This document shows positions 52,831 through 58,756 of a stretch of 64,000 bases of DNA, piece after piece (within the stretch, counting starts at the first letter, position 1; the number at the start of each line of letters is the position of its first letter). The stretch is from Sphingomonas kaistensis (GTDB lineage: Bacteria > Pseudomonadota > Alphaproteobacteria > Sphingomonadales > Sphingomonadaceae). A model generated the notes under the pieces. It made no database searches. It worked only from the letters and a program-made list of their open reading frames with translations, and had not been told where the DNA came from. The stretch covers positions 1 through 64,000 of the forward strand of contig NZ_CP145607.1 in assembly GCF_036884275.1 (NCBI RefSeq), in the 5' to 3' direction. A program made the position numbers and the translations under genes.

Positions 52831-53829
52831 CTATGCCGCCGCAGCTCTCTCGTCCTGCTCGTTTACGACGACCTGGTTTCTGCCACCTCGCTTGGCGCTG
52901 TATAGCGCGGCGTCAGCCGCTAAGATCCATTCATCGGAGTCTGTCACCGAAGTCGCGATTGGTGCGACTCCGAAACTCGCTGTCACCTTGATGCCTGTCG
53001 AAAAGCCCACCGTCAGCTGCTCCACTGTCTGCCTGAGCTTCTCGGCAACGGCGGTTGCGGCGCAGTTATCAGCTTCGTCCAAGACGATGCCAAATTCCTC
53101 GCCACCAAGGCGCCCAAGGACGTCGTTGGCGCGTAGCGCGTTGCGGCAGGCAGCGACAATCGCCTTCAAAACTGCGTCGCCTCCTGGATGCCCATAACAA
53201 TCGTTGATCTTCTTGAAGTGATCGATGTCGAAGAGGATCAGCGCAGAGGCTCGCTGATGGCGATGGAAACGAGCGATCTCCTTGTCCATCGCCTGCACGA
53301 ACCCGCGCCTAGTCAAAGCGTTGGTTAGATGATCCCGCTCTGCGATGCGGCGCAGCTCCAGCTCATCGACGACTAGCGACGCAAGGTTGCTGAGTATTTC
53401 GATCTGAGCTTGGCTGAACTCACGCGGCACGACGTCAATGGCGCACAGCGCCCCCACGTTGTAGCCGTCGGGAGTCTGCAAGGGCACCCCCGCGTAACTG
53501 CGGATGTTTGGATCGTCCAAGACTAGAGGGTTCACCTTGAAGCGATCGTCCTGAAGCGCATCGTCTACGATAAGAGGCTCAGTCTGGCGAATGGCATGGC
53601 TGCAGAACGAAACGGACCGCGGGGTCTCTCTGGTTTCTAGACCACATATTGACTTGAACCATTGCCGGTCCCGATCGATCAGTGAAACGGCTGAAATTGG
53701 AACTCCGAGCACGGAGCGGACCAAGGACGTGATCTTGTCAAATTGCTGTTCAGGTGCGGTATCCAACACACCATAACGATGAAGCGCAGCCAAGCGGGCG
53801 TGTTCATCCGTGAGCTTTCGATCAAGCAT
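52831..53829 (-). CDS. GAF-GGDEF diguanylate cyclase
   Basis: The 332-residue cytoplasmic protein has an N-terminal GAF domain (ARLAALHRYGVLDTAPEQ ... PRSVSFCSHAI ... IRSYAGVPLQ, residues 10-155) and a C-terminal diguanylate cyclase domain with an intact GGEEF motif (242-246) and an RxxD inhibitory site (R233-A-N-D236) five residues before it. It should make cyclic di-GMP with product inhibition. The ATG at 53829 overlaps the upstream gene by 8 nt. Confidence 0.92.
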   Translation of the reverse strand: MLDRKLTDEHARLAALHRYGVLDTAPEQQFDKITSLVRSVLGVPISAVSLIDRDRQWFKSICGLETRETPRSVSFCSHAIRQTEPLIVDDALQDDRFKVNPLVLDDPNIRSYAGVPLQTPDGYNVGALCAIDVVPREFSQAQIEILSNLASLVVDELELRRIAERDHLTNALTRRGFVQAMDKEIARFHRHQRASALILFDIDHFKKINDCYGHPGGDAVLKAIVAACRNALRANDVLGRLGGEEFGIVLDEADNCAATAVAEKLRQTVEQLTVGFSTGIKVTASFGVAPIATSVTDSDEWILAADAALYSAKRGGRNQVVVNEQDERAAAA

Positions 53830-54139
53830 TGGTAGCTTCCCCAAGGGCTTTAATCGCTTCTACAAGTTCGGCTCTGTAGGCAGAGATCAGCTGGTCGACG
53901 CTTTGCTCAATAGCCTCTTCAGTCATGCCAAAGCTTCGAAGCTGACCCACTAGTTGAGCGACATGTTCTTTATGACGAGCGGCAGCCGCGCGTAGCTGCT
54001 CAGGTATTTCGATGTCTCGTAGATCGTTTCGCAGCACACCCTCCCACGCTGGTGACACAAACGGCATGCTAGCGGCCAAGAGTTTACGTAATCCTGCGTT
54101 CGCATTCAGAGTGACAGCTGTGCTTGGACGTCTGCCCAT
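53822..54139 (-). CDS. Hypothetical protein upstream of the diguanylate cyclase
   Basis: The 105-residue soluble helical protein has a C-terminal half rich in Glu/Ala/Leu (AAAARHKEHVAQLVGQL; IEQSVDQLISAYRAELVEAI) that may form a coiled coil. It overlaps the cyclase start by 8 nt, so the two are co-translated and it may modulate the cyclase. I do not recognise the family. Confidence 0.6.
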   Translation of the reverse strand: MGRRPSTAVTLNANAGLRKLLAASMPFVSPAWEGVLRNDLRDIEIPEQLRAAAARHKEHVAQLVGQLRSFGMTEEAIEQSVDQLISAYRAELVEAIKALGEATNA

Positions 54140-54573: not shown

Positions 54574-55086
54574 CTAATCGAGAGCTGCGGTGACAACCGA
54601 GAGTGGCTCCGACACTGCTGCCTCAACCATGCCAGCCCCAACTAAGGCTAAACCAATGCTCGCCGCACTAATTGAGCAGAACTCAATCGATCGTCCTAGC
54701 AGCCTACTCTGCTCGTGCTTGTTTATCGGAGCGGGCTCTCGGGGAACAGCTCGCCGTTCGCCCAGTGCTGACGAGGCGGGAGCGGCACCTTCGTCATTAT
54801 CTTGTCCTGTTATCAAGGCTTCAATGGGCAGGGGATCTTGGGTGCAGACTCCAAACCGATGATCTTTAGACCACACGACACGCCCGACAATAACATGGCG
54901 GCCGCGCCTCACTTCGATGTAGCTGTTCTCTGGCGGAGCCACAAAACTATGGATCAAGAGACCGCGAGACGACATGTTTAGGAGGCATACGTCAGCCCAT
55001 CTTGAGCCTGCCTGCATTCTAGCCTTTATAAGCACCTTCTTGCGAGGTTCTCTGGCACGCAAACCCTGACTAAGCAGATGACCCAT
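54574..55086 (-). CDS. PilZ-like domain protein
   Basis: The 170-residue protein has an N-terminal PilZ-type barrel: REPRKK in the usual R-rich position (residues 12-17), N37-M-S39-S-R-G42 matching [D/N]xSxxG, and VVWSKDHRFGV. The C-terminal helix (ISAASIGLALVGAGMVEAA) is hydrophobic and may anchor it. PilZ domains bind cyclic di-GMP; here the RxxxR motif is imperfect, so binding is uncertain. The nearby diguanylate cyclase makes the link plausible. Confidence 0.75.
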   Translation of the reverse strand: MGHLLSQGLRAREPRKKVLIKARMQAGSRWADVCLLNMSSRGLLIHSFVAPPENSYIEVRRGRHVIVGRVVWSKDHRFGVCTQDPLPIEALITGQDNDEGAAPASSALGERRAVPREPAPINKHEQSRLLGRSIEFCSISAASIGLALVGAGMVEAAVSEPLSVVTAALD

Positions 55087-55387: not shown

Positions 55388-56080
55388 CTAATCTTCCCAC
55401 TGCTTCGTGACGGCTTGCGCTTCCGCCGCTGGGTCGAACGCTTCGCCTGCAATGCGACTATCGATGAGCGCGGAAAGTGCCGGATCCTGGCCACTCGCCA
55501 TCCGATAATCCCCCTGAGTGAAGCCGGAGCGGACCAAGCCCTCGATTGCCCAGTTCTCACCCCTGCGGCAGGCTAGGCCGTTCTGAGCTTCAGCGGCGAA
55601 CGTACGGCAGTAGCGGCCCTCCCGGTCCTTGAAGCTAAGGCCGATACGAACACCATTCTGCTCGCCGGCAGCAGCCAATTGGCGGTCTAGAGCCGCGTCC
55701 AGGGACCCGGCGGCCGCAAGCTGTCCGCCTGTCGACCGAAACGGGCCGCCCTCCCGTGGCACATTGGTGCCGATCAGGAGTCCGAGCGCCAGGCTGGCGG
55801 CCGCGGCCAGCCCGACAACGCTCCACTGACGCCGGCGAGCGCGTGCGGCAAAGTCGATCACTTCGGCGGTTCGTGGCTCCGCCGCCGTCTGAAGACGATC
55901 GGGCACGGGTGCGGCCAGGACCGGTGCGAACGCCGCGGAAAGCCTGTTCGACAGTGCCCGGTGCTGGCCCGCGAAGGCGGCGAGTTCGGGATCGGCCGCA
56001 ACCCTCGCGGCCATTGCGCTCGCCTGCGGGTCCGGAAGCTCTCCATCCAGCCAGGCGTAGAAGTTGGGATCGTCGGTCAT
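55388..56080 (-). CDS. Membrane anti-sigma factor
   Basis: The 230-residue protein has a cytoplasmic N-terminal anti-sigma-like region (YAWLDGELPDPQASAMAARV), a single membrane helix (VVGLAAAASLALGLLIGTNV, about residues 88-107) and a periplasmic C-terminal domain with two cysteines (YCRTFA, LACRRG). It overlaps the ECF sigma gene by 4 nt (ATGA), the classical sigma/anti-sigma arrangement. No canonical HxxxCxxC zinc motif is present. It presumably holds the sigma factor at the membrane until a periplasmic signal releases it. Confidence 0.87.
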   Translation of the reverse strand: MTDDPNFYAWLDGELPDPQASAMAARVAADPELAAFAGQHRALSNRLSAAFAPVLAAPVPDRLQTAAEPRTAEVIDFAARARRRQWSVVGLAAAASLALGLLIGTNVPREGGPFRSTGGQLAAAGSLDAALDRQLAAAGEQNGVRIGLSFKDREGRYCRTFAAEAQNGLACRRGENWAIEGLVRSGFTQGDYRMASGQDPALSALIDSRIAGEAFDPAAEAQAVTKQWED

Positions 56081-56583
56081 TCGTCACTTTCCTCGCCAAG
56101 CGCCGCAAGAAGGGCATTGCGCCCGCGTACCAACCGGCTCGACACCGTGCCGATCGGTTGCCCGAGCAGCTCGGCGACCTCCCGGTAGCCAAGGCCTTCG
56201 ATCATGATCAGGGCAACGACCTCCCGCTGTTCGTCGGGCAAGCGGCCCATTGCCCGCATGACGTTTGCCAGTTCCGCCGAGCGCTCGATGTCGGCCGCAC
56301 CGTCGAAGCCCTGACGCTCGCCCTCTTCCGGTGGCGCTTCCCACGCCGCCTTGCGCTGCCTGCTGCGAGCCTCGTCGATCCACAGGTTGCGAGTGATGCG
56401 GAACAGCCAGCTGTCGAGCCTGGTGCCAGGCGTGAACTGCGCCCGGCTGCGAAGCGCCCGCTCGACCGCGAGCGCTGCCAGATCGTCCGCGTCCGCCGGG
56501 TGACGCGACAGCGCGAAGGCGAAGCGCCGCACCCGTGGCAGCAGCGATGCGACTCCTTGGGCAAACTCGTCCTGGCTGTTCAT
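56077..56583 (-). CDS. ECF-type RNA polymerase sigma factor
   Basis: The 168-residue protein has sigma region 2 (RRFAFALSRHPADADDLA ... DSWLFRITRNLWIDEAR) and region 4 (LPDEQREVVALIMIEGLGYREVAELLGQPIGTVSSRL; key YREVAELLGQPIGTVSSR). The ATG at 56583 follows GGAGAG. It heads a two-gene operon with its anti-sigma factor and is divergent from the subtilase gene; a symmetric promoter element lies between them, so it probably transcribes itself and the protease. Confidence 0.92.
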   Translation of the reverse strand: MNSQDEFAQGVASLLPRVRRFAFALSRHPADADDLAALAVERALRSRAQFTPGTRLDSWLFRITRNLWIDEARSRQRKAAWEAPPEEGERQGFDGAADIERSAELANVMRAMGRLPDEQREVVALIMIEGLGYREVAELLGQPIGTVSSRLVRGRNALLAALGEESDE

Positions 56584-56595
56584 TGCTCTCCATGA

Positions 56596-56627
56596 GGATG
56601 AAACGAGGAGGCTGCGCCGTTTCATCC
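56596..56627. promoter_or_regulatory. Symmetric divergent ECF promoter element
   Basis: GGATGAAACG (56596-56605) and CGTTTCATCC (56618-56627) are a perfect 10-bp inverted repeat with a 12-nt spacer. Read on either strand it gives GGATG-N17-CGTT, a spacing matching alphaproteobacterial ECF promoters (EcfG: GGAAC-N16/17-CGTT). Expected starts lie near 56,628 for the protease (ATG 56658) and 56,595 for the sigma gene (ATG 56583). Confidence 0.65.
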
Positions 56628-56657
56628 CTGACGACGAACTGATTAGGATGCCCGGGA

Positions 56658-58001
56658 ATGTCCAGACACTCTTCCGCCCTTGCCGCTCTGCTGCTGGCCG
56701 GCGCCGCAATTGCCGCTGGCGGCGCGGCCCAGGCGCAACTGCTGCCTTCGCTTCCGGTCGGCAACCTGCCCGTTCCGCTGCCGGACGCCGTTCGCGGTAC
56801 ACCACTGGTCGGCGAGCTTCTGCGCGGCCTTACCCCGACAGAGCGGCGCGCGGCGACGGTCCCCAGCCTCGACCGGCTCGGGGTCGGTCCGGCCGTCGGT
56901 GACCTTGGCCGGGAAACGCTTGCAGAGCTGCGCCGTCTTCGCCTTGCCGAGCTGATCCGCGCCAATCCGGCGCTGCTCGACGTCGGGTCCGACGGGGCAC
57001 CGATCCGGCGCGGCGTGCTGGTCGCGATCGACCCGACCGAAGCCCAGTTAAGGGCTGCGACTTCGGCGGGCTTCACGGTCGAGACCCGCGAGGACCTCGG
57101 CGGCCTCGTCAGTGTCGTGCTCAAGGTTCCCGTGCGGCTTTCCGCCCGGGCAGCCATGCGGCGGCTGGCCGAGGTCGCACCCGGGCTCACGGCCGATTAC
57201 GATCATGTCTACGAGCCGGCGGGCGGAGCGCTCCTGCCGGGTGCCGGCGCGCTGCTCGCCGCCGCGGCGCCGCCGCCGATGCCGGTTGGAAAGACCATCG
57301 TCATGATCGATGGGGGCGTGGCCCCGCACCCAAGCCTCGCCGGTGCCTCGATCGTGCAGCAGGGCTTTGCCGGACCGGCAAAGGCAACCGGACACGGCAC
57401 GGCGGTCGCCTCGCTGCTGGTAGGGCGCGACGGTGCCTTTCGCGGTGCCGCCGGTGGAGCGAGGCTGTTCGTCGCCGACGTCTACGGCGGCAGCCCGGCG
57501 GCGGGCAGCGCAAGCGCCATCGTCAGGGCGCTCGCCTGGGCCTCGTCCAAGCAGCCCGACGCCATCAGCATCAGCCTCGTGGGCCCCAGTAATCTCTTGC
57601 TTCAGCGCGCCGTCGCGCTCCTCGCCAGGCGCCAGATCCGGATGGCGGCGGCGGTTGGCAATGACGGTCCCGCAGCGCCGATCCAATATCCGGCCGCCTA
57701 TCCGGGCGTCACGGCAGTCACTGCCGTCGATGCGCGCGACCGGGCACTGCCCGAAGCCGGCCGCGCCGCCCGTCTGGACTATGCCGCGCCGGGGTCGGAC
57801 ATGGCCGCGGCCCTGCCTGGCCGTGGCTATGCGAAGGTTCGCGGCACCAGCTTCGCGACCCCGCTCGTGGCCGCCCGGCTCGCTGCCACCCCTTCGGTGC
57901 AGGCGCTGGAACGGGAGGTGCTCAGGGGCAAAGGCCGGATCGGCCGCGGCATTCTCTGCGGAACCTGCCGCACCGACCCGAAAGTTGTCGGAGCGAAATA
58001 A
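56658..58001 (+). CDS. Secreted S8 (subtilisin-like) serine protease
   Basis: The 447-residue protein has a signal peptide (LAALLLAGAAIAAGGAAQA), a roughly 180-residue N-terminal propeptide-like region and a subtilase domain with the catalytic triad D218 (VMIDGG), H246 (GHGTAVAS) and S398 (GTSFATPLVAAR). Asn of the oxyanion hole is in AVGNDGPAA. Two cysteines near the C-terminus (LCGTC) may bond. Divergence from an ECF sigma/anti-sigma operon suggests an envelope-stress or signal-processing protease; the substrate is unknown. Confidence 0.92.
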   Translation: MSRHSSALAALLLAGAAIAAGGAAQAQLLPSLPVGNLPVPLPDAVRGTPLVGELLRGLTPTERRAATVPSLDRLGVGPAVGDLGRETLAELRRLRLAELIRANPALLDVGSDGAPIRRGVLVAIDPTEAQLRAATSAGFTVETREDLGGLVSVVLKVPVRLSARAAMRRLAEVAPGLTADYDHVYEPAGGALLPGAGALLAAAAPPPMPVGKTIVMIDGGVAPHPSLAGASIVQQGFAGPAKATGHGTAVASLLVGRDGAFRGAAGGARLFVADVYGGSPAAGSASAIVRALAWASSKQPDAISISLVGPSNLLLQRAVALLARRQIRMAAAVGNDGPAAPIQYPAAYPGVTAVTAVDARDRALPEAGRAARLDYAAPGSDMAAALPGRGYAKVRGTSFATPLVAARLAATPSVQALEREVLRGKGRIGRGILCGTCRTDPKVVGAK

Positions 58002-58015
58002 AAATCCGCGAGCGG

Positions 58016-58041
58016 GGATGAAGCTCGAAGTAGCCGTCGTT
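58016..58041 (+). promoter_or_regulatory. Second GGATG-N17-CGTT promoter, before the Gly-rich protein gene
   Basis: GGATGAA (58016-58022) and CGTT (58038-58041) are separated by 15 nt, exactly as in the divergent element at 56596. The predicted start near 58,048 gives a leader of about 50 nt before the ATG at 58100. This half is not palindromic. Confidence 0.6.
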
Positions 58042-58099
58042 CTCGACAGGCAAGCACCCCGTGGCTGCACGACGTAGAACGACAGGAAAGGTCAAAGAT

Positions 58100-58756
58100 A
58101 TGATCCGTTTCACCATCGCGCTGGCCCTCGCCGCCGGCATTGCAACCCCGGCCTCCGCGCAGCTTCTCGGCAATTCCGGTGGTTCAATCGGCGGGATGGT
58201 CAACGGCACGCTCAACGGCAGCAACTCGGTCGGCGGCACCATCGGCGGTGCGCTCGGCGGCGGCGGCGCGCTCGGCGGCACGCTCAACAATGTCTCGGGC
58301 AGCGTGACCAAGAGCGTGACCAGCAGCGTCGCGGGCACCGGCGAGGTCCGCTCGAGTCGCTCGGTCGACACCCGCAGCGGCTCGGCCGGCGGCAACCTCG
58401 GACTGGCCGGATCGCTGGCCGGCACTGCCGAGGGCGCACTTGCGGCGACCGGAATGGGCCAGTCCGGCGGCCTTGCGGGATCGCTCAGTGGCAATGCGTC
58501 GGGCGAAAAGAACGCAAGCTTGGGCGTCCAGGGTGTCGGCACCGACCACGTCGGCTCCGTCGCCGGAAGCGCGACTGGCATAGCAAGTGGTCAGCTGGCG
58601 GCGGCGCAGGAGCACGCGGGTGCCGTGCGCGGCGAGCTTCAGGGCCGGGCCGAAGGCGCCATTTCGTCGGCTCGCCGGACGAGCGGCTCGCTGACCGCAT
58701 CCGGGCAGGCCAGCGGCTCCGCCCAGGGCAGCGTCCGCAAGTCCAGCGACGACTGA
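58100..58756 (+). CDS. Secreted Gly/Ser/Ala-rich low-complexity protein
   Basis: The 218-residue protein has a signal peptide (FTIALALAAGIATPASA) and a body made of degenerate short repeats rich in Gly, Ser, Ala and Thr (for example GSIGGMVNGTLNGSNSVGGT; SLAGTAEGALAATG; SGSLTASGQASGSAQGS). It has no cysteine and few hydrophobic residues. AGGAAAGG precedes the ATG at 58100. It could be an extracellular matrix or surface component, or a substrate of the neighbouring subtilase; I do not recognise a family. Confidence 0.8.
   Translation: MIRFTIALALAAGIATPASAQLLGNSGGSIGGMVNGTLNGSNSVGGTIGGALGGGGALGGTLNNVSGSVTKSVTSSVAGTGEVRSSRSVDTRSGSAGGNLGLAGSLAGTAEGALAATGMGQSGGLAGSLSGNASGEKNASLGVQGVGTDHVGSVAGSATGIASGQLAAAQEHAGAVRGELQGRAEGAISSARRTSGSLTASGQASGSAQGSVRKSSDD

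Follow-up and report, generated by a model that had tools for sequence, protein, structure and literature searches.

The first 64,000 nucleotides of contig NZ_CP145607.1 (the window) contain four genes for a membrane anti-sigma factor, an extracytoplasmic function (ECF) sigma factor, an S8 (subtilase) protease and a Gly/Ala/Ser-rich protein. The arrangement of their promoter-like sites indicates that this module is very probably an autoregulated sigma/anti-sigma switch, related to RpoE6-EcfR6 of group ECF26, that uses three copies of one promoter. The ECF26 core of sigma factor, anti-sigma factor and protease is already known; what is unusual is the shared two-way promoter, a palindrome in the 74-bp gap between the divergent sigma and protease genes. 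The window belongs to a genome of 2.79 Mb in a single contig, which is Sphingomonas-like as judged from its relatives, the best named protease relative found being from Sphingomonas arenae (82% identical; very near records may be missing from the list).

The original prediction held that the palindrome can be read as a promoter on both strands and that the same motif and spacing recur before the Gly-rich gene, and both points held up. The search of the window for GGATGAA-N14-16-CGTT returned three matches against 0.05 expected, a number reached in none of 100 shuffles, and all three lie in the module, two of them face to face in the palindrome and the third before the Gly-rich gene (Table 1). 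The looser GGATG-N16-18-CGTT alone was not significant in the window (5 found, 2.2 expected, 8 of 100 shuffles reaching 5). That the sigma/anti-sigma pair seems to regulate itself along with one protease and one low-complexity protein is well supported at sequence level by these three promoter copies.

The conservation of the genes was searched in 37 genomes of the same genus, its own included, in a wider set of the best 80 of 420 named protease loci, selected on the protease alone, and in 296 sampled genomes from the order to which the window belongs; the four-gene set and the promoter were found to recur together across them. An orthologous protease (E 3.8e-60 or better) was present in 15 of the 37 genomes, with the sigma and anti-sigma genes divergent beside it in all 15, and the Gly-rich gene came next in 13 of these loci, the other two stopping at a contig edge. 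The wider loci include records named Sphingomonadaceae, Caulobacteraceae, Massilia, Steroidobacter-like bacteria and Arenimonas. Among them, a sigma match was found in 76 of 80 and lay divergent and upstream of the protease, with the anti-sigma gene, in 75. In locus L108, sigma and protease genes are separated by ~2.5 kb, and no sigma match was found in the flanking DNA examined of L101, L118, L119 and L139, the last of which begins near a contig edge. The sigma profile matched 101 of the 296 at E 1e-40 or better. One genome (G221) carries two complete modules. A record titled Arthrobacter sp. TPD3018 (L112) holds a typical Sphingomonas-type module whose third site is identical to that of S. 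aquatilis (L109); this record is probably misnamed or contaminated.

The promoter-like sites are conserved with the genes. In the 15 same-genus loci the palindrome is perfect in 13, has one arm base changed in L051 and is degenerate in L046, and the third site is present in all 13 loci having the Gly-rich gene, one copy reading GGAAGAA. Choosing the best site independently on each strand in the wider set gave an offset of +6 for 61 of the 74 loci. Of the 296 genomes, 55 contain the pattern GGATKAAACG-N12-CGTTTMATCC, with 56 copies in all, each of them 11–51 bp upstream of a match to the module's sigma factor, and none contains the reversed pattern. Strict sites (GGATGAA, GGATTAA or GGAAGAA with N15-CGTT) numbered 184 in the 80 loci, 174 at the expected places and 10 elsewhere, against no match for the reversed pattern; seven of these 10 precede module genes that were displaced, extra or miscalled by the script, and three (L101, L131, L157) do not. 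The third-site region was scored in the 55 loci with a downstream Gly-rich match, the remaining loci being listed and left uncounted, and 52 of the 55 reached 10 or 11 of 11, the reversed regions reaching at most 8.

The relationship with Sinorhizobium meliloti was traced through all three core proteins. According to the RpoE6 study (PMC6180224), the core with its divergent serine protease is widely conserved in ECF26, and overexpression of RpoE6, for which the study gives no defined role, raises 40 genes, 27 of them common to RpoE2. The protease gene SMa0142 stands out there among the RpoE6 targets, its promoter and start being given, and in a peptidase overexpression screen in symbiosis it is listed “+” for fixation (PMC8175422). 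The module sigma factor is 44% identical to RpoE6 over 162 aligned positions and has the sigma2-sigma4 architecture only, as is the case for ECF26; the best match of RpoE6 in the window's genome is this protein (131.6 bits, against 105.3 and 21.8 for two others). The pSymA trio matched the module profiles (sigma 1.4e-52, anti-sigma 1.7e-19, protease 2.7e-54), and on pSymA the promoter string published for SMa0142 lies in the homologous divergent gap. Because the homologous RpoE6 trio has a published promoter in the same gap, the core is of a known kind and, by analogy with this homologue, the protease promoter of the module is likely to respond to its sigma factor. The S. meliloti genes are divergent as here and the -10 CGTT of the module agrees with the ECF26 -10 GT, whereas the -35 there is GGAATA-like, the spacer is 1 nt shorter than in the module (counted by hand), no shared palindrome was seen by eye, the trio has no Gly-rich match and its reported regulon is larger. 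Next to ecfR6 on pSymA lies a frame rich in NSSS repeats that has a signal-like start (10387–10773 of L169); by its order, it may be the RpoE6 target SMa0146. The statement that no description of this set was known thus fell for the core; it stood for the shared promoter, the Gly-rich gene and the sensor, since the literature searched, with few subscription papers covered, gave no recognised description of the palindrome or of a linked Gly-rich third gene, and no anti-sigma sensor resembling a 17-kDa surface antigen.

The anti-sigma factor was assigned by the 4-bp overlap of its start with the end of the sigma gene, by alignment and by its profile match to EcfR6. A transmembrane-like segment was placed by eye at about 87–105, and zf-HC2 matched weakly in 11 of 15 orthologues. 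All 78 aligned homologues, among them EcfR6, share C158, R159, C171 and W177, and the two cysteines may form a disulfide in the periplasmic domain. This domain aligned over 47 columns with the 17-kDa surface antigen profile (17kDa_Anti_2, PF16998) at an hhalign probability of 93.7%, against at most 0.8% for eight column shuffles and 0.1% and 0.2% for two other profiles. That profile was built from 17 of 22 PF16998 matches, leaving out two below the cut-off, one with an internal stop and two whose locus was not retrieved. The pattern CRxF/Y...GxACR...W is common to the C-terminal domain of the antigen and the anti-sigma factor; here it sits on an anti-sigma factor, and Pfam gave no PF16998 match in the 15 orthologues (E<=1) or in any of 25 same-genus genomes (E<=0.01), so we speak of a likeness to 17kDa_Anti_2 and not of membership. 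For the C-terminal domains of the S. meliloti anti-sigma factors, some similarity to RsiW is described in PMC6180224. A PDB search with the anti-sigma profile gave a single weak match (2wuq, E 0.0094), which was not used.

The protease matched PF00082 (E 4.5e-18), and its residues D218, H246 and S398, conserved in all 82 aligned homologues, are the likely Asp/His/Ser triad from their position and motif; the cysteines of a C-terminal CxxC (C434, C437) are each present in 59 of 82. For the Gly-rich protein, Pfam returned nothing at E<=0.1 with any of the 13 orthologues, and NCBIfam gave no match either. A script favouring ATG and a signal-like start picked a third-gene frame downstream of the third site in all but two (L119 and L146) of the 80 loci; of these 78 frames, 77, without the truncated pick of L105, were aligned with the window protein. 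Most of these products are Gly/Ala/Ser-rich and read QLLG or similar after the signal-like stretch, AQ[LIV]LG being present in 65 of 78 third-gene products. The protease has QLLP after its own signal-peptide-like start, and A-x-A-Q-[LIVG][LIVFG] was found in 56 of 80 proteases, including at least one false match within the domain, compared with 8 of 121 other frames with a signal-like start. This shared mature start is suggestive of a common export or assembly, which we did not use as proof. Domains were rare in the 78 third-gene products scanned (OmpA in four, a weak PRC-barrel in two, apolipoprotein-like in one), and in two Novosphingobium loci (L128, 5151–7126; L149, 5151–7089) a Gly-rich gene that has a promoter site of its own comes after an OmpA-type third gene. 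ShlB/FhaC-like frames were found in three of the 80 loci, directly beside the protease in L108 and L101, and neither in the window nor in 23 other loci compared. In L108 (1286–5092) and L101 (1101–5077), a lipoprotein-like gene stands in a row with the ShlB/FhaC-like transporter (matched by Pfam in L108), the S8 protease and one more exported protein, a variant that links the protease to two-partner secretion. From these arrangements, surface assembly by the module is plausible.

A different role for the protease would be mainly in signalling, by cutting the anti-sigma factor outside the membrane in a positive feedback with the Gly-rich protein as passenger or substrate. The linkage of the protease with sigma and anti-sigma genes from Sphingomonas to Sinorhizobium and Aminobacter, the latter two with no Gly-rich gene after the protease, fits this idea, and the signal-peptide-like start of the protease means that it could meet the sensor domain. 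Against it, no sigma gene was found in the flanks of L101, L118 and L119, and site 1 of RseA is cut by DegS, a protease of the HtrA family. We regard the feedback role as possible, at about one chance in four.

The extent of the regulon was assessed with the strict motif in 30 same-genus genomes, the 15 carriers and 15 of the 22 non-carriers. The carriers had 39 strict sites within the module and 16 outside and the non-carriers had 11, against five matches of the reversed pattern across all 30 genomes; sites outside the module exceed the reversed control, but equally in module-free genomes. A global regulon was rejected for this reason, and the strict motif in these 30 genomes gave no sign of further targets. 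The close relative G019, whose protease is 95% identical, has three strict sites genome-wide, all within its module. With a wider -35, five close genomes yielded 28 sites, compared with 14 matches of the reversed pattern, and the added sites are scattered. In the window's genome, the outside sites overlap open frames of at least 136 codons, a weak criterion in GC-rich DNA, and one spans the start of a ribosomal protein L17-like frame (by eye). The regulon thus appears self-contained, as the original prediction had it, at the strict consensus only; the claim is limited to that level because RpoE6 overexpression raised 40 genes in S. meliloti.

It is rather unlikely, though not negligible, that these sites belong to the general stress sigma factor EcfG and not to the local one. 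EcfG (ECF15) recognises GGAAC-N16/17-CGTT, so that the -10 and the total length are the same as in the module. The 27 of 40 RpoE6 targets shared with RpoE2 in S. meliloti point the same way, as does a match of the module sigma factor to the PhyR_sigma2 model (E 8.9e-10). However, -35 bases 4–5 differ, the module has one small local set of sites, and the 56 palindromes all lie beside a match to the module sigma factor. Furthermore, no PhyR or NepR genes were noticed among the frames around the module, and a PhyR-like frame beside an EcfG-like sigma factor (by eye) stands elsewhere, near 1.208 Mb of the window's genome.

The nature of the palindrome was examined by counting columns in the gap and at the third site. 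Sites were picked on -35 and -10 bases alone, identical sites were merged and only scores of at least 10 of 11 were counted; for six of the 80 loci there is no entry for the gap, and a few of the 80 come from a genome that also supplied one of the 15 same-genus loci. Of the 89 entries for the divergent gap, 76 reached this score (68 distinct), and the -35 was followed by ACG in 68 of 68 and accompanied by the opposite -35 bases (T, CC) in 65. The third site reached it in 85 of 93 entries (79 distinct), whereas ACG was present in only six and the opposite -35 bases in two. The symmetric part is therefore kept only where two genes diverge, and since the third site retains a one-way promoter without symmetry, the palindrome is best read as two superposed promoters, in which the -10 element of each strand shares one base with the -35 element of the other, and not as an operator. 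An operator for a dimeric regulator, its likeness to promoters being incidental, would account for the perfect 10-bp arms and the fixed 12-bp spacing that are typical of dimer sites. That explanation was rejected and is highly improbable, because the third site keeps the -35 and -10 bases and their spacing while losing the symmetry and because in the split locus L108 the sigma gene retains GGATGAA-N15-CGTT with the opposite -35 gone. The protease of L118, with no sigma gene nearby, keeps a full one-way site (11 of 11). Warman et al. in 2021 are said to have described divergent transcription from symmetric bacterial promoters with housekeeping-type -10 elements, where reportedly one symmetric stretch serves both directions, as here; the module differs from those reported cases in its ECF sigma factor and in carrying complete -35 and -10 elements on both strands, which interleave with a fixed offset. 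The weakest explanation, a sulfite response as for other ECF26 members, can hardly be right: in PMC3511301, RpoE1 and RpoE4 (ECF26) respond to sulfite-generating compounds, but the same authors' preliminary, unshown data have rpoE3 and rpoE6 not induced by them.

Several observations weigh against the two-way promoter and the switch built on it. When the 71 strongest sigma matches (E 1.4e-56 or better) were compared with the full set of 56 palindromes, 15 of the 71 had no exact palindrome, and 13 of the 89 gap entries lack the shared form, namely all 12 beta- and gammaproteobacterial loci and Asticcacaulis (L153), so that it is not essential to the module. Within this sample, the shared palindromic form is thus alphaproteobacterial. 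The opposite -10 bases (AACG) persist beside the sigma site of L108, and the protease sites parted from the sigma gene are only near in L101 (10) and not clear in L108 (9) and L119 (8). The published ECF26 -35 consensus is GGAATA (with -10 GT), against mostly GGAT(G/T)AA in the module. The strict-motif scan may miss weaker targets, given the 40 genes affected by RpoE6 and the 27 shared with RpoE2, and EcfG may cross-recognise the module sites. Two-way firing is deduced from the sequence, and the arguments for a surface function come from minority variants.

In the gap of the Massilia loci L138, L145, L151 and L165, the -35 region on the sigma side, GGAAGAAAATCC, is nearly symmetric in itself, and 10–14 bp away begins a weak opposite site (8–9 of 11), possibly a back-to-back sharing unlike the alphaproteobacterial form.

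The features of the locus are collected in Table 1. Signal peptides and the membrane segment were assigned by eye, and the start toward the protease was placed by transferring the distance from the mapped SMa0142 start; the predicted sigma/anti-sigma leader of ~10 nt contains GGAG. The interval 56077–58756 given earlier for the module takes in three genes and the promoters, and the anti-sigma gene lies outside it. A serine hydrolase of the beta-lactamase fold (PF00144; 59051–60892) comes after the module; it had no tblastn match in 20 relative loci compared (~4 kb of flank each) and is probably not part of it. A PilZ-like protein (54574–55086) and a GAF-GGDEF-like protein (52831–53844) were noticed by eye nearby.

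Table 1. Genes and promoter-like sites of the module, in window positions.
Feature	Position	Strand	Remarks
Membrane anti-sigma factor, 230 aa	55388–56080	-	N-terminal region, one transmembrane-like segment, periplasmic domain
ECF sigma factor, 168 aa	56077–56583	-	Sigma70_r2 + Sigma70_r4_2
Palindrome GGATGAAACG-N12-CGTTTCATCC, 32 bp	56596–56627	both	two face-to-face GGATGAA-N15-CGTT, 6-bp offset
Putative promoter facing the S8 protease gene	56596–56621	+	predicted start ~56628–56630
Putative promoter facing sigma/anti-sigma	56602–56627	-	predicted start ~56593–56595
S8 (subtilase) protease, 447 aa	56658–58001	+	PF00082
Putative third, one-way promoter GGATGAA-N15-CGTT, upstream of the Gly-rich gene	58016–58041	+	motif and spacing
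Gly/Ala/Ser-rich protein, 218 aa	58100–58756	+	signal-peptide-like start, then QLLG

What the sequence shows, namely the genes and the promoter-like sites, how well these are conserved and how nearly exclusively they are tied to the module, is consistent with the following working model. At rest, the membrane anti-sigma factor would hold the sigma factor, as in its family, until an envelope signal is read by the small periplasmic domain, with its two invariant cysteines and 17-kDa antigen-like character, and the sigma factor is released. The holoenzyme would then use the three GGATGAA-N15-CGTT copies for the sigma factor itself, the protease and the Gly-rich protein. Since the -10 and -35 elements of opposite strands overlap, one polymerase would start in one direction at a time, either the sigma/anti-sigma operon or the protease gene and not both simultaneously. 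The third promoter would drive the Gly/Ala/Ser-rich protein, and this protein and the protease may act jointly at the cell surface. We put at about even the chances that the palindrome is an ECF-sigma “coin-flip” promoter, in which one orientation gives sigma and anti-sigma factors and the other the effector protease in a mutually exclusive manner, with a geometry locked against indels and an anti-sigma factor that senses the envelope through its surface-antigen-like domain, the two cysteines possibly being the input. As an indel in the spacer would break both promoters, the sharing of the spacer may keep the geometry fixed, and this would account for the unchanging offset seen in Sphingomonadales and Caulobacterales.

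For Sphingomonadales and Caulobacterales, these findings define precisely the anatomy of the serine-protease branch of ECF26, with an exact promoter, a small target set of three promoters, a linked third protein and a sensor candidate. If true, a two-way symmetric ECF promoter would offer a clean natural means of testing how an autoregulated switch is shaped by the direction in which polymerase binds, and it could serve as a compact genetic part.

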